A stretch of DNA of 64,000 nt from an uncultured Lachnospiraceae bacterium (GTDB taxonomy: Bacteria > Bacillota > Clostridia > Lachnospirales > Lachnospiraceae): NCBI GenBank assembly GCA_946554445.1, contig CAMNSD010000020.1, forward strand, positions 1 through 64,000. The letters run 5' to 3'. The notes below the pieces were generated by a model. The model was not told the origin of the DNA. It saw nothing but the letters and a program-made list of their open reading frames with translations, and did no database searches. How positions within the stretch are numbered: the first letter of the stretch is position 1; each line of letters begins with the position of its first letter. The position numbers were made by a program, and so were the translations under genes. This document shows positions 55,068 to 64,000 of this stretch, piece after piece.

Positions 55068-56381
55068 TCAGGGAAGCATCACCGTAAAGACACTGCCGCC
55101 GCCCGGATTGTCGGAAACAGTGATCGTGCCATGGTGAAATTTTATGATCTCTGCGGCGATAGATAGACCCAGCCCGAAGTGCCCTTTGGTGCTTCGGGAT
55201 TTTTCTACCCTGTAAAAGCGGTCGAATATCTTCTTTTTGTCTTCCTCCGGTATGCCGATTCCGGTGTCTGAGACAGTAAGGTAGAAACGGTTCTTTTTGT
55301 ATAGAAGAGATAATGTAATCTGTCCGCCGGCAGGGGTGTAGCTGATGGCATTGTGCAGAAGGATTGAAAGTACTTGACTGATGCGTTCATCGTCAGCCAT
55401 GCAGACAGGGACAGAGGTTTCTGGCAGGGTGATGTTTAATGTCTGGGATTTTTTACGGGCTAAAGGCTCAAACGCCTCATAGGTGTTCATCAAAAGCGTA
55501 TCCAGTTCCACTTCTTTGGGACGGATGGGGAAATTGTGGTTGTCTGAGTTACTTAAAGTGAGCATGTCGTTGATCAGGGACGACATCAGGGCGCCTTCCT
55601 GCTGAATGGTATCAAGGAATCCCTGCTTTTTCTGGTCATCGGCATTTTGGCAGCAGTCGGCAGCCGTGAGGATGACGGATAGGGGCGTGCGCAGTTCATG
55701 GGAAGCAGCTGCGATAAAAGCGGTCTGACGGCGGCGATTCTCGATGATAGGCTGCAAGAGTCTGCCTGTAAAAAAGAAGGAAAAGAGCGTCAGGAGAAGA
55801 ATAGCCGTCACATCGATCAGGAGAAAACGAAGCCGCTGCTTTTGAATCTGCTCATGCAGAAAATCCAGGGAGCGCAATACCACCATCTGCAGAGAGGAGT
55901 CATTTCGGTTCAGTTCAATGACGCTGGCGTAGAATTCATATCTGCCGCCAGTGGGATTGAAGGGGAACTCGGCGTGAAAACAGGTGTTGTAGAGGCCGGA
56001 ACTGATTTCTTCCCCACTGATTACGTATTCATGTTCAAAGATAGAGTGGTAGGTGTCGAGACATTTTTCCAGAAGTTCTTCGGTATCAGCTATTTCCGAA
56101 AAAACCCCAAGACGATTGTAAAGGAACGGTATACCGTTATCCATAACAAAAAAGGAATAATTGCCGTTGGATTCCATCTTAGAGAGCCATTCCATGGAAA
56201 TGACGGACTGCTGCTCTAAACTGGTGGCGATGGTATTGATATCGTTTTGAAAAGAAGTATATTGGTTGTCGTAGAGCTCTTTTTCTGAAATATACAGATA
56301 GCACAAGGACATTACGATCATAATGGCGGCGGTGATGCCTGCGCACATTGCCGTCAGATACAGGTGTACTTTCTGAAACAT
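55068..56381 (-). CDS. Membrane sensor histidine kinase
   Basis: The sensor of a two-component system. Two membrane segments (about residues 8-30 and 188-208) bracket an extracytoplasmic domain of about 155 residues. HisKA has the phosphorylated His228 in AAASHELRTPLS; the ATPase has LLHNAISYTPAG, DTGIGIPEEDKKKIFDRF and GHFGLGLSIAAEI. No HAMP is clear. It lies 17 nt after its regulator gene. The signal is unknown; the lipoprotein targets inferred below suggest envelope stress or secreted compounds. Confidence 0.9.
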   Translation of the reverse strand: MFQKVHLYLTAMCAGITAAIMIVMSLCYLYISEKELYDNQYTSFQNDINTIATSLEQQSVISMEWLSKMESNGNYSFFVMDNGIPFLYNRLGVFSEIADTEELLEKCLDTYHSIFEHEYVISGEEISSGLYNTCFHAEFPFNPTGGRYEFYASVIELNRNDSSLQMVVLRSLDFLHEQIQKQRLRFLLIDVTAILLLTLFSFFFTGRLLQPIIENRRRQTAFIAAASHELRTPLSVILTAADCCQNADDQKKQGFLDTIQQEGALMSSLINDMLTLSNSDNHNFPIRPKEVELDTLLMNTYEAFEPLARKKSQTLNITLPETSVPVCMADDERISQVLSILLHNAISYTPAGGQITLSLLYKKNRFYLTVSDTGIGIPEEDKKKIFDRFYRVEKSRSTKGHFGLGLSIAAEIIKFHHGTITVSDNPGGGSVFTVMLP

Positions 56382-56398: not shown

Positions 56399-57076
56399 TC
56401 AGCTGGGTTTAACAATGCAGTATCCGACGCCCCGGACGGTCTTAAGGGTGAGACGGCTGCCTACGCTCTTTAATCGTCTGCGGAGAAAGTGGATATAATT
56501 GTCCAGATTGCCTTCCTCCACGTCGCTGTCAGGGCCCCAGACTTTTAAGAGCAGTGTGGAGCGGGGAACAGTGGCTTCGCCGTTTTTCAAGAATGTTTCC
56601 AGAAGCGCGGCTTCCCGTTTGGAAATGGTACAGCTTCCAGCCGGACCGGTGAGACGGCTCTGATTGGCGGACCAGCTGATATCAAACAGGGTGACGCTTT
56701 CCTCATCCACAATCTGATGTGGTCGTCTTGTCACACAGCGGATTCGAGCCAGAAGTTCTTCCAGGGCAAACGGTTTGACCAGATAGTCATCGGCGCCCAT
56801 ATCTAGCCCGGTTACCTTATCGGAAAGGGTGCCGAGTGCGGTGATTAGGATAATGGGTGTGTTGATGCCGCTTCCGCGCAAGGCTTCCAGGACATCTGTG
56901 CCTTCTATATAAGGCAGCATGCGGTCTAAGAGGATGACGTCATAAATGTTCTGTTCCCCATAAAAAAGGGCGTCTTCCCCGTCAAAACAGGAGTCCACGG
57001 TAAAGCCGGCTTGTGTCAGCCCGTAGGTGAGAGTTTCATTCAGTTTTACATCGTCTTCGGCTAGGAGTATACGCAT
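56399..57076 (-). CDS. OmpR-family response regulator
   Basis: A 225-residue regulator: receiver domain with acidic pocket AEDD (8-9), phosphorylated Asp51 in ILLDRMLP, Thr in LITALG and Lys in YLVKPFALEE; the C-terminal winged helix has SKREAALLETFLKNGE and RRRLKSVGSRLTLKTVRGVGY. It is probably autoregulated through TTTAGAGA-type boxes in its promoter, shared with two lipoprotein genes. Confidence 0.92.
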   Translation of the reverse strand: MRILLAEDDVKLNETLTYGLTQAGFTVDSCFDGEDALFYGEQNIYDVILLDRMLPYIEGTDVLEALRGSGINTPIILITALGTLSDKVTGLDMGADDYLVKPFALEELLARIRCVTRRPHQIVDEESVTLFDISWSANQSRLTGPAGSCTISKREAALLETFLKNGEATVPRSTLLLKVWGPDSDVEEGNLDNYIHFLRRRLKSVGSRLTLKTVRGVGYCIVKPS

Positions 57077-57168: not shown

Positions 57169-57202
57169 ATTATACCATAACATTCTTGAAAGAATCTCTA
57201 AA
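57169..57202 (-). promoter_or_regulatory. Promoter of the two-component operon with 11-bp-spaced boxes
   Basis: On the minus strand TTTAGAGA (57202-57195), then TTTCAAGA (57191-57184) 11 bp further, then TATAAT (57174-57169). The second box starts 17 bp before the -10, the same as in the two lipoprotein promoters. The -35 is poor, as expected of an activated promoter. Confidence 0.65.
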
Positions 57203-57247
57203 AATGTTTCGTCAGAGTGTATTGACAAACTGATAATTGAATAGACT

Positions 57248-57276
57248 TTGTATCTTAGCTGTGATACACTTATATT
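57248..57276 (+). promoter_or_regulatory. Possible promoter of the 63-codon gene
   Basis: TTGTAT (57248-57253), 17-bp spacer, TATATT (57271-57276). Confidence 0.45.
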
Positions 57277-57315
57277 GTAACATTACATGCCACAATATAG
57301 AAAGCAGGTGATGAT

Positions 57316-57507
57316 ATGCTAACTGGTATTGAGGTTATAAAACAAGCGCTGGATGATTTTAAAAAGATACAAGAATATATGCTTTTAGCAAAAAAGGAAA
57401 ATGCAACTGAAACATATGCAAAACTGAAAGATGAATATTTAACAGTGAAAGCCTTATTGCAGGCTTCAGGTGTAAATCTTACGGACATTGATAAAATAAA
57501 AGAATAA
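57316..57507 (+). CDS. Small helical protein of unknown function
   Basis: 63 residues, predicted as two or three amphipathic helices (IEVIKQALDDFKKIQEYML; YAKLKDEYLTVKALL), no Cys, no membrane segment. GCAGGTGATGAT precedes the ATG. It has its own promoter-like element and a strong terminator, and is AT-richer than its neighbours, which suggests a separate origin. Family not recognised. Confidence 0.6.
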   Translation: MLTGIEVIKQALDDFKKIQEYMLLAKKENATETYAKLKDEYLTVKALLQASGVNLTDIDKIKE

Positions 57508-57529
57508 CAGGCAAAATAAATGATAAACA

Positions 57530-57573
57530 AAAGGTGTAAAGTCTATTGAATTATTAAGGATTTACACCTTTTT
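57530..57573 (+). terminator. Terminator after the 63-codon gene
   Basis: A perfect 11-bp stem AAAGGTGTAAA/TTTACACCTTT (57530-57540 with 57561-57571) with a T-run. Confidence 0.85.
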
Positions 57574-57660
57574 GATTTTAACATATCATTGTTAATATGT
57601 CCTTTCAACATATTATTCTCATGAAAAGAATGGAAAAGAATGGGGGTTGAAGAATGGTTA

Positions 57661-57689
57661 TTGCGTTGGAGGGGAAAAGCGTATATAAT
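57661..57689 (+). promoter_or_regulatory. Promoter of the LytTR regulator gene
   Basis: TTGCGT (57661-57666), 17-bp spacer, TATAAT (57684-57689). Confidence 0.7.
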
Positions 57690-57751
57690 TATCGAGTATG
57701 ACGCGCAAGATGACAATTTTTGAGAATGTGACAGAACGAAAGAGATGGAAT

Positions 57752-58495
57752 ATGTATTCGATTGCGATTTGTGATGATGAAACGGAAGAACTGGATAGAA
57801 CGCAGGAAAGTCTGAAGGAGTATATGAAGCAGAATTCCATCAGCGATTGTAAGGTAGAACGGTTTGAAAATGCAGAAGAACTGCTTTACTTGATGAAACA
57901 CAATGATTATATGCCGAATATTCTTCTATTGGATATTTATATGCCAGAGAAATTGGGAACAACGCTTGCCCGGGAAATTCGGGAAATGGGAGGCACCAGC
58001 CGGATTATTTTCCTGACCTCTTCCAAGGATCATGCGCTGGAAGCCTTTCGTCTGGAAGCGGCGCAGTATTTGGTAAAGCCGATAGTAAAGAAGGAATTGT
58101 TTGCGGTGCTTGACAAGTGTTTCCGGGATATCGAGGAGGAGGCAAAGAAATATCTGTTGTTTAAGGTGGACGGCAGGATTCGCAGGATATCTTTAAGCGA
58201 TATTCTTTACTGTGAGGCGCAGGGGAAACGTCAGTATTTACATTTTTCAGATGACACACATTTAGTTCTTAATATGACGATGGGTGAGATTGGGAATCTC
58301 TTATTGAATTATCCGGAGTTTACCAAGGTCGGTATTTCTTATATTCTCAATATGAATCATCTGGATACTTTAAACGCCAGGGAGGCACATCTTGACAATG
58401 GATATTCTATTTATCTGCCGAGAGGCTCCTACGGGGCATTGCGGGAAAATTATTTCCGATATTACTGTGGGGGGGGGGTAGAAAGTGACAGGTGA
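57752..58495 (+). CDS. LytTR-family response regulator (orphan)
   Basis: Receiver domain (residues 1-125) with acidic pair Asp8-Asp9, phosphoacceptor Asp61 in LLLDIYMPEKLG, and Lys in YLVKPIVKKE; LytTR DNA-binding domain from about 140 (VDGRIRRISLSDILYCEAQGK; FTKVGISYILNMNHL; LPRGSYGALRENYF). The start at 57752 is chosen because members begin MYSIAICDD; upstream codons overlap the promoter. No partner kinase is adjacent. Its last codons run through ten G, so the C-terminus CGGGVESDR is probably variable. Confidence 0.88.
   Translation: MYSIAICDDETEELDRTQESLKEYMKQNSISDCKVERFENAEELLYLMKHNDYMPNILLLDIYMPEKLGTTLAREIREMGGTSRIIFLTSSKDHALEAFRLEAAQYLVKPIVKKELFAVLDKCFRDIEEEAKKYLLFKVDGRIRRISLSDILYCEAQGKRQYLHFSDDTHLVLNMTMGEIGNLLLNYPEFTKVGISYILNMNHLDTLNAREAHLDNGYSIYLPRGSYGALRENYFRYYCGGGVESDR
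58469..58478 (+). repeat. Homopolymeric G10 tract at the end of the LytTR gene
   Basis: Ten consecutive G. Loss of one G gives an immediate TAG; gain of one gives a stop three codons after the tract. Only the last residues would change. Confidence 0.85.
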
Positions 58496-58595
58496 TGATT
58501 TCTCGTGCTCTGTGTACTGACTATTAATTATCGGTTGTGCTCCTCGTGTTTCTCTCAATATTATCTCCTCAACGTTATTGTTATGTAAACTAAAA

Positions 58596-58660
58596 TGCAA
58601 AGTATACCGTAAAAAGTGCGATGTATACCCCAAATCTTAATTATTCCATGGATTTATATT
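58596..58660 (+). promoter_or_regulatory. Direct-repeat operator and promoter of the chemoreceptor gene
   Basis: TGCAAAGTATACC (58596-58608) and TGCGATGTATACC (58617-58629) are direct repeats, 11 of 13 identical, with a 21-bp period. They end where a -35 should begin; TATATT (58655-58660) is a possible -10 with a poor -35. This is the layout of LytTR-activated promoters. The rest of 58496-58713 shows no gene. Confidence 0.6.
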
Positions 58661-58713
58661 AAAATAATTTTCGCAGAACTTTTGTAGAACTGACTGAAGA
58701 GAGGTGCATAAAG

Positions 58714-60714
58714 ATGGCAAAGACTATGAAAGGCAGATTGACGATTAGTGTCATCTGTATTGTTGCAGCAAGTATTTTGCTCACTACGATGGGAATCGTC
58801 ATCATTGCGGGACAGCGCATGATGGTGGAACAGAAAGATATTTTACAGCTTTATGCGGATAAGTACGCGGAGGAGATCAATACTTGGATTGAAAATGAAA
58901 AGATGTTGGCAGGCGGAACCGCAGACAGCATTGAAGCGGCGGGAACTTTGGACACAGAATATCTGCAGTCCGCAGTTGATGTCCATGCGGCAGGCAGGGA
59001 AGAACTGTTGAATTTGTACTGCGGCACAAAGGACAGCGCTTTTATCCAGTCCAACAGGGAGGCGGCAATACCGGAAGGATATGATCCGGTACAGCGGGGC
59101 TGGTATCAGCAGGCGGCAGCAGCTAAAGAGACGATCGTGACAGATCCTTATTGGGATGTGCTGACAGGACAGATGTGTACCACCATCGCCTCACCGGTAT
59201 ACATAGAGGGAGAATTGGCCGCAGTGATTGGTCTGGATGTGACGCTGGGGACGGTGACGGATCTGACCGGCAGCATCAATTATGCGGAAGGCGTCTATGG
59301 ATTCCTTGCAGACAGCAGTGGGCAGTATGTGGCCCACAGAAATAAAGACTATGAACCCTCCGAGGAGGCCGCGGTCGCCGTTATGGATATCATGCCGGCG
59401 TTACAGCCTCTTATGGAAGGAAATGATAGAAGCATTGTCAGGGCGGCAGATTATGATGGGACCACCTGTTATTTTGCGGCGGCGCCGATTGCGGGCAGCA
59501 ATTGGAAACTTGGTGTGGTGTGTCCTAACGCCAATGTCTGGAGTTCCCTGGTCACCATGATCGTGGTGGCTGTGGTGACGGCACTGGTGCTCATTGTCTT
59601 GGTGGCAGTGTTTATGGCGGGGCTGATCGGCAGGACACTGGCGCCGGTACAGATGCTCAAACAGTTTGCTTCCGGCGATTTCTCGGAAGATGCTGTGGTG
59701 GAGAAAGGGATTCCCAGCCAGTATAAAAATGAGATTGAACAGATTAAGACTGCGACAGTGGAAGTCAAACAGCAGATTCGCGGGATTATTTTGAATACCA
59801 AGGAAGAGGCCGGGAACATTAATACCATTGCGGAAGAGACTTCTGCGAAGATGACGGTGTTAAACGGTGATATATCTACAATGTCATCTGCTGCAGGTGA
59901 AGTTATGAGACAGACTGCTGAGGCTAAGGCGTTGGCGGAACAGATCAAAGGCACAGGCGAAGAACTGAGCAGAGTGATCGAGAATGTGGCGAGAAAGGCC
60001 GGAGAGGCAGCAGATCAGTCCGGCGATATCATGAGCCGTGCAGGAAAACAGCATGAGGCTTCCCAGAAATCGGCCAAAGAGGCTGTAGATATGTGCAGTT
60101 CCACCATGGAAGAACTCAGCAGCGCCATCAAACAGAGTCAGAAAGTAAAAGAAATTGATACATTGACAGAAGAGATTCTGGCCATCAGTTCCCAGACCAA
60201 TCTTTTGGCGTTAAACGCTTCTATTGAAGCAGCGAGAGCGGGGGAGGCAGGTAAGGGTTTTGCAGTTGTGGCGGAGGAGATCAGACAGCTGGCGGACCAT
60301 TCCAAGGATGCTGTGGATCAGATCCGTAAAGTGACGGACGATGTGGTGCATAGTGTGGCATTCCTTTCAGAAAGTTCCGAGAAACTTCTGACTTTCATGA
60401 ATGAGAAAGTCATGGAAGATTATCAGAGCATGACGGAACTGGCGGGCATGTATGAGAAAGATGCCGCCTTCTACAGTGATATTTCCAGCGACCTGGGTGC
60501 TTCGTCCCAGGAGATGAGCGCCAGCATGGACGGCATCAGCGATTCCCTTGCCACGATCACAGGACTTGTGAGTGATATCGCGGAATTTATGAGGGAAATG
60601 GAGCAGTCGGCGGCGGAGTCCAACGAAAACTCCAGCGCAGTGCTTGCGCAGATGGAAGAGTTGTCGGGATTGAGTGAACAGCTGAAACAGACGGTGGCTT
60701 CCTTTAAGGTATAA
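58714..60714 (+). CDS. Methyl-accepting chemotaxis protein with dCache-like sensor
   Basis: A 666-residue membrane chemoreceptor. TM1 is about residues 10-32 and TM2 about 280-304; between them is a Cache-type domain ([34 protein letters not shown], then [13 protein letters not shown]), which typically binds small metabolites. A weak HAMP and a signalling domain follow, with the hairpin tip [19 protein letters not shown], then [19 protein letters not shown]. No other chemotaxis gene is in the window. GAGAGGTG precedes the ATG. Confidence 0.9.
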
Positions 60715-60830
60715 CCATCAATATTCCTTTTTTGAAATACATAAGCAGTGAGCGGGCAGGACAGGGTAAATACCAATATTCCGCAGGTGAGGATTCCTGC
60801 CCCTTTATGAATAACAGAATAATTACATCT

Positions 60831-60882
60831 AAAGAGGCATGGTCAATTACCATGTCTTTATATTTTCGCGCGGCCTCTTTTC
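60831..60882 (+). terminator. Probable terminator of the chemoreceptor gene
   Basis: AAAGAGGC (60831-60838) with GCCTCTTT (60873-60880), an inner hairpin, then TT. The T-run is short. Confidence 0.5.
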
Positions 60883-60966
60883 CCAACGAAGCCAAGGATA
60901 GAGCCGTAAGGCAGGACAAAACTCAGTTTATCTAGGATAAAACTTTCTGTGGAAATAAAAAGGGTA

Positions 60967-60997
60967 TTGACTCTGACGTAACGTGATAGTTTACAAT
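60967..60997 (+). promoter_or_regulatory. MerR-type promoter with 19-bp spacer and internal dyad
   Basis: TTGACT (60967-60972), 19-bp spacer, TACAAT (60992-60997). Inside is the imperfect palindrome ACTCTGACGT-A-ACGTGATAGT. A 19-bp spacer with a central dyad is the hallmark of promoters that MerR-family activators distort; autoregulation is expected. Confidence 0.8.
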
Positions 60998-61022
60998 GAT
61001 ATCACACGGGAGGGATCAGGAT

Positions 61023-61748
61023 ATGAGGACGGTAAAGGAAGTAAGCAGTCTGACAGGGGTGAGTGTGCGCACACTCCACCACTACGATGCGATTGGGCTT
61101 TTAAAACCAACCAAGGTAACGGATGCAGGCTATCGGCTGTATGACGATGCAGCAATCTGTCGTCTGCAAAATATTCTGCTGTTTCGTGAATTGCAGTTTT
61201 CTTTAAAAGAGATTAAGGAGATTCTGGGCAATCCGGATTTTGATTCTGATATGGCTCTCGCCCAGCAAATCAGGCTTTTGGAACTGCAATATGAACGGAT
61301 AGGGAATCTGATCACTTTTGCCCGTGAAATACAGGAAAAAGGAGTGCGTAAAATGGAATTTGATGTTTTTGATAAAAAGGAGATTGACCAGTATAAGGAG
61401 GAGGTAAAGAGCAGGTGGGGACAAACCGAAGCCTATCAGGAATTTGTGCGAAGACAGGAGAACGGCGAGGACTTTGATAAGGCAGGAAAAGCGCTGATGG
61501 CTTTGTTTGAGGAAATCGGTGAATTGCGTGAGTTACCGCCGTCTGACGGGAAAGTGCAGGGTAAGATTTGTGAACTGCAAAGTTTTATGACAAAGCATTA
61601 TTACGACTGTACTAAGGAAATCTTAAAAGGCTTAGGGACAATGTATGCGGAAGATGAGCGGTTTCGCCAGAATATTGACAAGGCCGGCGGCAATGGGACA
61701 GCAGAGTTTGTCAGACAGGCGATTGAGGTTTATTGTTGTGGGGAATAG
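61023..61748 (+). CDS. TipA-like MerR-family transcriptional activator
   Basis: A 241-residue regulator. The N-terminal winged helix MRTVKEVSSLTGVSVRTLHH with YDAIGLLKP is typical of MerR; a dimer helix follows, then a TipAS-like domain from about residue 115 (FDVFDKKEIDQYKEEVKSRW; GKALMALFEEIGELR; LQSFMTKHYYDCTKEIL). TipAS domains bind thiopeptides and other hydrophobic drugs. The start at 61023 has GGGAGGG 8 nt upstream; the ATG at 60996 lies in the -10. No target gene other than itself is adjacent. Confidence 0.9.
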   Translation: MRTVKEVSSLTGVSVRTLHHYDAIGLLKPTKVTDAGYRLYDDAAICRLQNILLFRELQFSLKEIKEILGNPDFDSDMALAQQIRLLELQYERIGNLITFAREIQEKGVRKMEFDVFDKKEIDQYKEEVKSRWGQTEAYQEFVRRQENGEDFDKAGKALMALFEEIGELRELPPSDGKVQGKICELQSFMTKHYYDCTKEILKGLGTMYAEDERFRQNIDKAGGNGTAEFVRQAIEVYCCGE

Positions 61749-61773
61749 GCCTGATAGATGAACCTGTGAGGAA

Positions 61774-61823
61774 AAAATAAGACAGCATACTTCATTGATG
61801 AGGGTATGCTGTCTTATTTTTTT
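61774..61823 (+). terminator. Strong bidirectional terminator after merR
   Basis: A perfect 17-bp stem (61774-61790 with 61804-61820) with A-run and T-run on the two sides. Its T-run overlaps the first TTTAGAGA box of the next promoter. Confidence 0.9.
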
Positions 61824-61854
61824 AGAGACACTTTAGAGAAAATCCTGCTATGAT
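61821..61854 (+). promoter_or_regulatory. Lipoprotein 1 promoter with two TTTAGAGA boxes
   Basis: TTTAGAGA at 61821-61828 and 61832-61839 (11-bp period) and TATGAT at 61849-61854; the second box starts 17 bp before the -10. No good -35 is present. Confidence 0.68.
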
Positions 61855-61920
61855 GTGAAATTAAAAAAGCGGACAATACATACAAAAACAACCAAAGACG
61901 GCCCGCAGAAAGGATGAAAC

Positions 61921-62523
61921 ATGATGAAAACGACAAAAAAATGGATAACGGCAGGATGCATGGGAATCATGCTTCTGGCCGGATTTACAGGGTGTACAAA
62001 AACGGAGGAAACATCACAGCAGACACAGGAGGAGACAGGAAGCAAGACGGATATTCAAACGCCGGAGGAGACAGGAAACGATACAGACAATCACACAGAC
62101 ATGGCGAGCACATCAGAACAGAACAAGCAGAACCAGTCGGATTCCGCCAACGAATCGGATGACCAATCAGACCAATCAACACCGCAGAAATTTAACCCCA
62201 GTGAGGGAACAGAACATCTTGGAGGGAAGGTACAGAGCGTGGCGGATGATGGTATGATTGTTGCCCAGACCACGGTGATGGGAGAGGGAGAAGACGCTGG
62301 TATGGTCACGATAGTGGATGAGAAGGACGCGAAGAAAATTTCCGTGAAATTTACCACAGATACCAGGGTGGAACATTGGATCATCCAGGGTGGCGGCGCT
62401 GACATTGATATGAAAGATGCTGCGATTTCAGATTTAAAGTCCGGTCTGGGCGTGGAGTTAGAAGGAGATTACGAGGGGGAAAACTTTATTGCTACGCGGA
62501 TTTTGATAGAGGAATATAAATAG
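61921..62523 (+). CDS. Lipoprotein 1 with acidic linker and small C-terminal beta domain
   Basis: A 200-residue lipoprotein: charged N-terminus, hydrophobic core, lipobox AGFTGC (Cys near 23). An Asp/Glu/Gln/Ser/Thr-rich linker (about residues 25-95) leads to a domain with LGGKVQSVADDGMIVAQTTV and KKISVKFTTDTRVE, ending GENFIATRILIEEYK, which looks like a small OB or DUF5666-like beta barrel. The next gene has the same layout and related C-terminus. Role unknown. Confidence 0.78.
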   Translation: MMKTTKKWITAGCMGIMLLAGFTGCTKTEETSQQTQEETGSKTDIQTPEETGNDTDNHTDMASTSEQNKQNQSDSANESDDQSDQSTPQKFNPSEGTEHLGGKVQSVADDGMIVAQTTVMGEGEDAGMVTIVDEKDAKKISVKFTTDTRVEHWIIQGGGADIDMKDAAISDLKSGLGVELEGDYEGENFIATRILIEEYK

Positions 62524-62532
62524 GGTGGACGT

Positions 62533-62577
62533 TTTAGAGATTTCTTAGAGATTCTTTAGAGAAAAATTTGATATGAT
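62533..62577 (+). promoter_or_regulatory. Lipoprotein 2 promoter with three TTTAGAGA-type boxes
   Basis: TTTAGAGA (62533-62540), CTTAGAGA (62544-62551), TTTAGAGA (62555-62562), each 11 bp apart, then TATGAT (62572-62577); the last box starts 17 bp before the -10. The expected start point (about 62584) falls inside the Shine-Dalgarno, so the leader is very short. Confidence 0.7.
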
Positions 62578-62595: not shown

Positions 62596-63273
62596 ATGAT
62601 ATTACGGATGATGAAAAAGAACAGGATAGTTCTGGCTTTGGTTTGTGCCATGATGGTGATGATGCTGGCAACGGGCTGTGGAGAAGAAAAGGAAGCGCCG
62701 ATACCGGTGGACTTGTCTTCGGAGAATCTGCAGGATGAGGCAGGGGATTTGATACAAGATACGGAAGAAGATAAGCAGAATAATGACGAAGGCGGAGATA
62801 AGCTTGCCGGGGAAGATAAACAGTTGGACGCAGAGGATAAAGAGAGCGGCCAGACAGATGGTGACAGGAGGTCAGAGGCAGACAACAGTTCACAGGAGGA
62901 TGATAAATCGGAAGGCGAAAATTCACAGACAGGACAGACATCCGGCAACGAGGAGTTAGTGGGCGACATCAGAGGAGAGATTGGGCAGGACGGTTTTGTC
63001 CTCTGTAAACATACGATTGAGTCTGATGGTAACGTTGCTATTGCAGTGGCGCCGGGGGCCGAAGAGGCAGATGATCTGGTCACAGTATATGTGAATCCGG
63101 GCTGTACCTATCGGTATAAAATGATTAAAAACGGCGGTATCAATCCGGAAGATATTTCAGAGCGGGAAGGTTCCTTTGGCGATTTGAAGGAGGGAATGAC
63201 CTGTATCCTGAAAGGAAGCTGGCAGGACGGCTCTTTTTATGCAGACAGTATCGAGATGGAGGAGTTTGTTTAA
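62596..63273 (+). CDS. Lipoprotein 2, related to lipoprotein 1
   Basis: A 225-residue lipoprotein with lipobox MLATGC (Cys near 28), then a very acidic Asp/Glu/Lys/Gly/Ser linker (about residues 30-115) and a C-terminal domain GDIRGEIGQDGFVLCKHTIE, then GMTCILKGSWQDGSFYADSI. The final GSFYADSIEMEEF parallels GENFIATRILIEE of lipoprotein 1, so the two are probably paralogues. GGAAGGAG precedes the ATG; its stop shares one base with the next start. Confidence 0.78.
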   Translation: MILRMMKKNRIVLALVCAMMVMMLATGCGEEKEAPIPVDLSSENLQDEAGDLIQDTEEDKQNNDEGGDKLAGEDKQLDAEDKESGQTDGDRRSEADNSSQEDDKSEGENSQTGQTSGNEELVGDIRGEIGQDGFVLCKHTIESDGNVAIAVAPGAEEADDLVTVYVNPGCTYRYKMIKNGGINPEDISEREGSFGDLKEGMTCILKGSWQDGSFYADSIEMEEFV

Positions 63274-64000
63274 TGGGCAGTATGAAAAGGAAAAAACTAT
63301 TAGTAGTTATGCTTATCCTTTCCCTGATGACAGGACTGCTTGGCGGTTGTGGAGGCGGTGACTCGGACGGTTCCTCCGAGCAGGGGACAGATGCAGCGGA
63401 AGGAAGCGCATCCGGTGCTGGGACAGGCACAGAGGATGGGCAGGATGGCGCAGAGAATACAGAAACTGGTAACAAGGCCATGGGCCGCTATGTGGAAAAT
63501 CCGGTGGACATTTCGGAATATACGACTCTGTCCTGCGGGGTTACTGCGCTGACGGACGGCAGTTTTATCATCTTGGATAAAGAAGCGGGGATGCTGGTAT
63601 CTGCGGATGGCGGTGTGACCTGGAAAGCGGAGGCGGTACCGGGGATTCCAGATTTTGCGGCCTTTACCAAGGACAATTATATCTTTGCCATGAAGGCGGA
63701 TACGGACGGCACGATCGCAGTATTGTCATCCCCCAATACAGACGGGACCGGAGATTTTCATACGGGACTGATTCTGACAGGGCCGGACGGTAATTCCCGG
63801 ACAATCACGGAACTGACGGCGGCGGAAGAAGGATATGTGTCGAATATCTGGTTTGGCCCCGAAGGGCGGTTGTTTGCCGAGATCATGGGCGGCAGTGCAC
63901 TTTATGAGGTAGATACACAGTCCGGTGAAATGCATAAGTATATGTCCCTTCCGGAGATGCCGGATCTGCTGCAATTCCAGGGGGACTATATGATGCTTCT
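63273..64000 (+). CDS. Lipoprotein 3 (partial, runs off the window), possible beta-propeller
   Basis: Open to the window end (242 codons). Signal segment KLLVVMLILSLMTGLLGGC with lipobox LLGGC, then a Gly/Ser/Asp/Glu linker, then a domain with SAGDGGVTWK-like BNR/Asp-box signature (SADGGVTWK near residue 116) and repeats GSFIILDKEAGMLV, GTIAVLSSPNTDG, GRLFAEIMGGSALYEVD, which fits a beta-propeller of Asp-box type. GGAGGAG lies 8 nt before the ATG at 63273, which overlaps the lipoprotein 2 stop. It is probably cotranscribed. Confidence 0.8.
   Translation, partial: MGSMKRKKLLVVMLILSLMTGLLGGCGGGDSDGSSEQGTDAAEGSASGAGTGTEDGQDGAENTETGNKAMGRYVENPVDISEYTTLSCGVTALTDGSFIILDKEAGMLVSADGGVTWKAEAVPGIPDFAAFTKDNYIFAMKADTDGTIAVLSSPNTDGTGDFHTGLILTGPDGNSRTITELTAAEEGYVSNIWFGPEGRLFAEIMGGSALYEVDTQSGEMHKYMSLPEMPDLLQFQGDYMML

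Follow-up and report, generated by a model that had tools for sequence, protein, structure and literature searches.

Candidate 11-bp direct-repeat operators of an OmpR-family regulator, in fixed phase with extended -10 promoters, in Lachnospiraceae

Promoters of the Escherichia coli pho type carry an operator with an 11-bp (base pair) period, placed 10 bp from the -10 element and accompanied by a poor -35 element. Their regulator PhoB, an OmpR-family winged-helix protein, is described in the available part of its report as binding direct repeats in tandem over the -35 region (PMC3348028). In Clostridioides difficile, the OmpR-family regulator RR_1586 is described in the available part of its report as having an 11-bp direct repeat, consensus DRTTAAGNWWW twice, and targets in sporulation and germination (PMC6222199). 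Phased direct repeats of this general kind were analysed in a 64,000-nucleotide stretch (the window) of an uncultured Lachnospiraceae bacterium (GenBank assembly GCA_946554445.1, contig CAMNSD010000020.1, positions 1 to 64,000), where they precede a two-component operon and two lipoprotein genes. In kind the parts are familiar, namely an OmpR/PhoB-family regulator joined to an 11-bp direct repeat. The window system is like PhoB in its OmpR-family winged helix and in its tandem direct repeats over the -35 region, and unlike it in the TTTAGAGA box, the strongly conserved extended -10, the gene context and the recognition helix. With RR_1586 it shares an OmpR-family regulator in Clostridia with an 11-bp direct repeat; the half-site and the targets differ, and the available RR_1586 description gives no fixed -10 phase. 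The features concerned are as follows.

56399..57076, minus strand: OmpR-family response regulator, 225 amino acids (aa) (Pfam Response_reg 3e-24, Trans_reg_C 1.6e-15).
55068..56381, minus strand: sensor histidine kinase, 437 aa (HisKA and HATPase_c), in an operon with the regulator, 17-bp gap to the regulator stop.
57169..57202, minus strand: operator/promoter of the regulator operon, TTTAGAGA-TTC-TTTCAAGA-N9-TATAAT, TG before the -10; boxes at 57202 (TTTAGAGA) and 57191 (TTTCAAGA, two mismatches), TATAAT at 57174-57169.
61821..61854, plus strand: operator/promoter of lipoprotein 1, TTTAGAGA-CAC-TTTAGAGA-N9-TATGAT, TG before the -10; boxes at 61821 and 61832, both TTTAGAGA, TATGAT at 61849.
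62533..62577, plus strand: operator/promoter of the lipoprotein 2 operon, three boxes in 11-bp steps at 62533, 62544 (CTTAGAGA) and 62555, then TATGAT at 62572, TG before the -10.
61921..62523, plus strand: lipoprotein 1, 200 aa, open reading frame (ORF) with a lipobox-like stretch by eye, no Pfam match at 0.01.
62596..63273, plus strand: lipoprotein 2, 225 aa, ORF with a lipobox-like stretch by eye, no Pfam match at 0.01.
63273..64000, plus strand: start of lipoprotein 3 (803 aa, SBP_bac_8), from the ORFs of the contig and Pfam/NCBIfam.

At all three promoters, TTTAGAGA-type boxes lay 11 bp apart and the start of the proximal box was 17 bp from the start of the -10; repeats, phase and coordinates had been reported in a preliminary description of this DNA and were exact on recheck. 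The pattern TTTAGAGA-N3-TTTAGAGA-N9-TATNAT, allowing up to 3 mismatches, matched the window exactly at these 3 places and was found 0 times in 100 dinucleotide shuffles; since it was derived from the same three sites, the rest of the genome is a better test than the window. The single TTTAGAGA box was not enriched in the window (51 matches at up to 1 mismatch vs 56.5 expected), so that the signal resides in the box pair and its phase. TG at -15/-14, one base before the -10, was present in 3/3 promoters and makes each an extended -10, a feature absent from the preliminary description. The lack of a good -35 claimed there for all three promoters was borne out for the regulator and lipoprotein 2 (best 2/6 at 16-18 bp spacing) and was less marked for lipoprotein 1 (4/6).

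The preliminary description had called the regulon window-local and proposed a genome-wide search for the pattern. When this was run on the whole assembly (4.39 Mb, 87 contigs, with the window on contig 20), the full pattern at up to 3 mismatches gave 6 sites vs 0 for a reversed control; the many unrelated promoters that might have carried it were looked for genome-wide and not seen. The three sites outside the window lie on three other contigs (15, 32 and 48), one of them in a second regulator module, so the regulon is not local to the window. The contig 15 site precedes a solute-binding-type lipoprotein of ~825 aa, 34% identical to lipoprotein 3. On contig 32 the site precedes a 402-aa Amidase_2 protein; in G060, a genome of the same genus, the start of a relative of this protein (67% identity over 221 residues) is likewise marked by a site. 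The contig 48 site precedes a paralogous regulator-kinase pair (52% and 35% identical to the window pair), which diverges from a lipoprotein, two permeases and an HlyD-like sequence of its own; on that lipoprotein side the operator reads TTTCCAGT-TTT-TTTAGAGA in the same phase. The 19-bp box pair alone, with no -10 and up to 3 mismatches, was uninformative genome-wide (71 matches vs 135 for the reversed control). Only the added -10 phase separates signal from noise. A chance origin of the sites was rejected on window shuffles, the reversed genome control and shuffled upstream regions.

Relatives were collected by a contig scan with the regulator, and the best 80 of 588 (L071-L150) were split by identity into 55 close loci (at least 49%) and 25 distant loci (at most 44%). 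L074 and L091 (less than 150 bp upstream) were set aside in upstream counts, leaving 53 close loci; alignments were built on chosen subsets (41, 43 and 32 sequences), and an early motif look took 65 of the 80 loci. Upstream of the close regulators, 72 box pairs at 11-bp spacing were counted vs a shuffled mean of 0.38, with a pair in 47/53 loci, as for OmpR/PhoB-family direct-repeat operators of about 11-bp period; only 1/25 distant loci had such a pair. For TANNNT the favoured offset from the proximal box was 17, with 61 cases against 11 for the runner-up. With boxes and the 17-bp phase both required, 65 sites remained in 46/53 close loci, on the regulator side in 38 loci, on the divergent side in 26 and on both in 18. 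TG was found at -15/-14 in 58 of the 65, though it played no part in selection, and the best -35 match was at most 3/6 in 63 of the 65, where the -35 region lies partly inside the selected boxes. An operator over the -35 region at a fixed -10 distance, with no good -35, is the class II-type (pho-box-like) arrangement.

Over the whole of the 55 close loci (883 kb), a degenerate form of the pattern gave 62 exact, 27 one-mismatch and 14 two-mismatch matches, vs 1 match in all for four permuted or reversed controls; because this form was drawn after many close loci had been viewed, the scan is descriptive and the survey of 200 genomes given below is the fairer test. The 25 distant loci gave 1 two-mismatch match and 1 control match. 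In the relative L071, the 34 bp of the lipoprotein 1 operator/promoter and the proximal 34 bp of that of lipoprotein 2 are identical to the window. In L071, L072 and L076, a site is retained at the regulator and at each of the two small lipoprotein genes, over distances of several kb; L073 has sites at the regulator and lipoprotein 1, and its third site faces the contig end.

The regulator itself consists of a receiver plus a winged-helix DNA-binding domain, the domain make-up of the OmpR/PhoB family. Its best NCBIfam match was PhoB, at 165.3 bits, far below the equivalog cut-off of 296.2 for PhoB proper (phosphate regulon). Among the matches listed (named records), the closest homologue was 94% identical and belonged to an uncultured Lachnospiraceae metagenome-assembled genome. 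A same-strand kinase match lay at most 1.5 kb from the regulator in 50/55 close loci. The putative recognition-helix region of the window regulator is VEEGNLDNYIHFLRRRL, placed according to the usual position of this helix in the family. GNLDN was present here in 24/24 aligned close-group sequences and 0/8 distant ones. In a set of 102 regulators (best match per locus, at least 205 aligned residues; 2 skipped in the operator test for short upstream DNA), a fixed rule found the operator in 57/75 regulators with a GN(L/V/I)D(N/S)-type helix and in 0/25 in which the helix was absent.

The survey covered 200 Lachnospiraceae genomes of 199 genera, own genome included, using the degenerate pattern with TG at up to 1 mismatch, a regulator threshold of E 1e-58 or better, and at most 14 candidates scored per genome. 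The motif was found in 39/200 genomes and the regulator in 31/200; 30 of the 31 genomes with the regulator had the motif. The co-occurrence gave a Fisher p of 1.5e-26 (7.6e-26 with the own genome left out), values that are optimistic because the sequences are related and not independent. The remaining one, G149, carries variant sites to either side of the start of its regulator. Of 63 sites, 28 lay at most 500 bp from a regulator start and 12 at 0.5-20 kb. Among the motif genomes lacking the regulator, G104 and G159 have a site just before a more diverged regulator gene, G188 has one before a gene that is HlyD-like by eye, and four others (G153, G190, G077 and G007) have a site inside an ORF; some single matches, for example these last, are probably chance. 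Remote sites in other genera precede small lipoproteins in G107, G046 and G057 (similarity by eye), and in G033 and G046 a secreted protein of ~180 aa, 52% identical between the two. A one-mismatch site at L152:5732 (G107:C17), which may be chance, lies 217 bp before an apparent pair of a GntR-type regulator and an ABC transporter.

From the pattern of conservation, the boxes are very likely the operators of the regulator at 56399-57076, with its own operon and lipoproteins 1-3 as putative targets. The overall model, to which we give a probability of roughly 0.8, is of a PhoB-like, phosphorylated and positively autoregulated activator of an envelope/transporter regulon. The partner kinase would phosphorylate the regulator, which would then occupy two 11-bp direct-repeat half-sites, at about -40 to -22, in the form of a head-to-tail dimer. 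Bound there, it would stand in for the -35 element, recruit sigma-A RNA polymerase to the extended -10 (TGnTAnnnT) and so activate its own operon. In the same genome it would act on the lipoprotein 1 gene and on a presumed operon of lipoproteins 2, 3 and 4, two permeases and an HlyD-like protein. The contig 15 solute-binding-type lipoprotein and the contig 32 Amidase_2 protein are candidate further targets, as possibly is the contig 48 paralogous module. In this genome no separate box belongs to lipoprotein 3, the start of which shares one base with the end of lipoprotein 2; its transcription would thus begin at the lipoprotein 2 promoter. The preliminary description had the regulator activating itself and lipoproteins 1-3; comparative evidence supports the targets, and activation rather than repression is suggested by promoter anatomy.

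Several observations weigh against this model. In the window, the lipoprotein 1 promoter has a possible weak -35 (GAGACA, 18 bp), the proximal box of the regulator's own promoter is degenerate (TTTCAAGA), and a conventional promoter-like match (10/12) overlaps the lipoprotein 2 start codon. Terminator-like matches in the operon region were somewhat above shuffles (13 vs 7.8), so that operon continuity rests on gene spacing. Among the close loci, 7/53 had no phased site (L101, L108, L110, L111, L113, L117 and L124), and a 9-bp box spacing was also over-represented (15 vs 0.32), perhaps as an echo of the internal AGAGA repeat. By the fixed rule, 18/75 helix-positive regulators lacked the operator, some of them, such as L071, only through the strictness of the rule. 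In the survey, besides the relatedness that makes its p-values optimistic, 23 of the 63 sites lay neither within 500 bp nor within 20 kb of a regulator start, and a one-mismatch site within 500 bp was found at only 22/43 regulator genes.

Of the other explanations, the one that survives best, though we hold it to be somewhat unlikely, is that a different factor is the main reader of the boxes, or that the contig 48 paralogue (52% identical) shares in reading them, so that the window promoters are cross-regulated. The contig 48 module has similar operators, and its regulator has the same GNLDN helix as that of the window. Family-wide the motif tracks this regulator subfamily, although the search cannot separate paralogues; in addition, the distal box of the contig 48 lipoprotein promoter deviates in a conserved way (TTTCCAGT), and this variant operator was exact in 5/200 genomes (control 0), which suggests that the two modules may be told apart. 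These variant sites are at L069:8626-8659, L167:857, L179:678, L180:865 and G114:C21:25169, and the first four face a lipoprotein gene divergent from a contig-48-type regulator.

A promoter with an extended -10 need not have a -35 to function. Repression, in which the regulator bound at -40 to -22 blocks RNA polymerase on extended -10 promoters active by themselves, would fit the overlap of the boxes with the polymerase footprint and the frequency of TG among the phased sites. We consider it improbable, as the boxes keep a constant 17-bp distance to the -10 in dozens of loci and hardly any site has a good -35. A fixed helical phase is expected for sigma contact and unnecessary for blocking. 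PhoB, the closest architecture, is an activator. A modelled PhoB initiation complex has been presented (PMC3348028). That the pattern is a general promoter element or a sigma-factor signature, with no connection to the regulator, is hardly credible: the -10 and TG are generic sigma-A elements, but the full pattern has only 6 matches in 4.39 Mb and is rare in genomes without the regulator (9/169), near the rate of the reversed pattern (12/200).

Sugar-type (CUT1) ABC importers encoded beside a two-component system resemble the gene context of the activator proposed here: in both, a kinase and a regulator have SBP_bac_8/SBP_bac_1 lipoproteins and BPD_transp_1 permeases close by. Past the window, on the same contig, lipoprotein 3 is followed by lipoprotein 4, two BPD_transp_1 permeases and an HlyD/RND-adaptor-like protein (68.6 vs the NCBIfam RND_mfp cut-off of 94.9). 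Unlike the sugar-type importers, the window operon ends with this adaptor-like protein, no gene for an ATPase was recognised in the ORFs of the lipoprotein 2-3-4/permease operon, and the window-type binding proteins are ~800 aa long with an N-terminal part giving weak propeller-type matches. A profile of the lipoprotein alignment matched CbpC (7x0o) at 6.2e-27 and, among the matches listed, also WD40-type chains; lipoprotein 4 had a sub-threshold PQQ_2 match. On the WD40-type and PQQ_2 matches, the N-terminal part of lipoproteins 3 and 4 is possibly propeller-type. As a guess, the ligand of the transporter may be a sugar or cell-wall-derived.

Most often the close regulators sit beside a divergent operon that encodes solute-binding lipoproteins of ~800 aa, a pair of ABC permeases and an HlyD-like adaptor. 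Of the 55 close loci, a solute-binding lipoprotein match was present in 44, permeases in 35 and 33 and HlyD-like matches in 32, with all four in 31/55, compared with 0/25 distant loci; loci broken by contig ends count as misses in these tallies. A divergent lipoprotein or permease begins at most 1.5 kb from the regulator start in 35/55 close loci and lies further away in 9 (among them L071, L072, L073 and L076); 10 have no divergent match of this kind, and L106 has matches on other sides of the regulator. Other genes split the regulator and target halves in the window and in L071, yet each half keeps its site. In Sedimentibacter (L121:1433-3732), the cluster continues with ORFs that by eye encode a 404-aa membrane protein-like and a 366-aa importer ATPase-like product; neither was seen in the window operon.

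In the window, genes for a LytTR regulator, a methyl-accepting-type protein and a MerR/TipAS regulator (57752-61748) separate the regulator operon from its putative targets. A run of ten G at 58469-58478, near the 3' end of the LytTR regulator ORF (57698-58495), is a possible slippage site. One further feature lies next to the lipoprotein 1 promoter.

61772..61822, plus strand: strong hairpin with a U-run (fold -26.3 kcal/mol, z -7.9), likely the terminator of the upstream merR/TipAS gene.

The hairpin is nearly symmetric, and its T-run overlaps the first TTTAGAGA box of the lipoprotein 1 promoter.

Among the open-licence papers listed by literature searches, no description of the regulon, the operator or its link with this regulator subfamily, or the attached gene cluster was found, nor was TTTAGAGA together with a response regulator; the papers listed for TTTAGAGA by itself evidently dealt with other subjects. 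We put forward tentatively, as an idea rather less likely than its negation, that this is an apparently unnamed module of Lachnospiraceae and relatives, in which the kinase-regulator pair, the large solute-binding lipoproteins (possibly propeller), the importer-type permeases and the HlyD-like adaptor would together make up a single autoregulated circuit for extracellular sensing, with two copies kept apart or deliberately linked by half-box differences (TTTAGAGA vs TTTCCAGT). To our knowledge, an operator has been defined for few two-component regulons in gut Lachnospiraceae. In the present case the sequence yields the operator and its phase with the promoter, together with the regulator subfamily and a likely target operon, and the regulator occurs in 31 of the 200 sampled genomes of the family. 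Paralogous modules with slightly different half-sites in one genome are a natural test of how related regulators avoid cross-talk.

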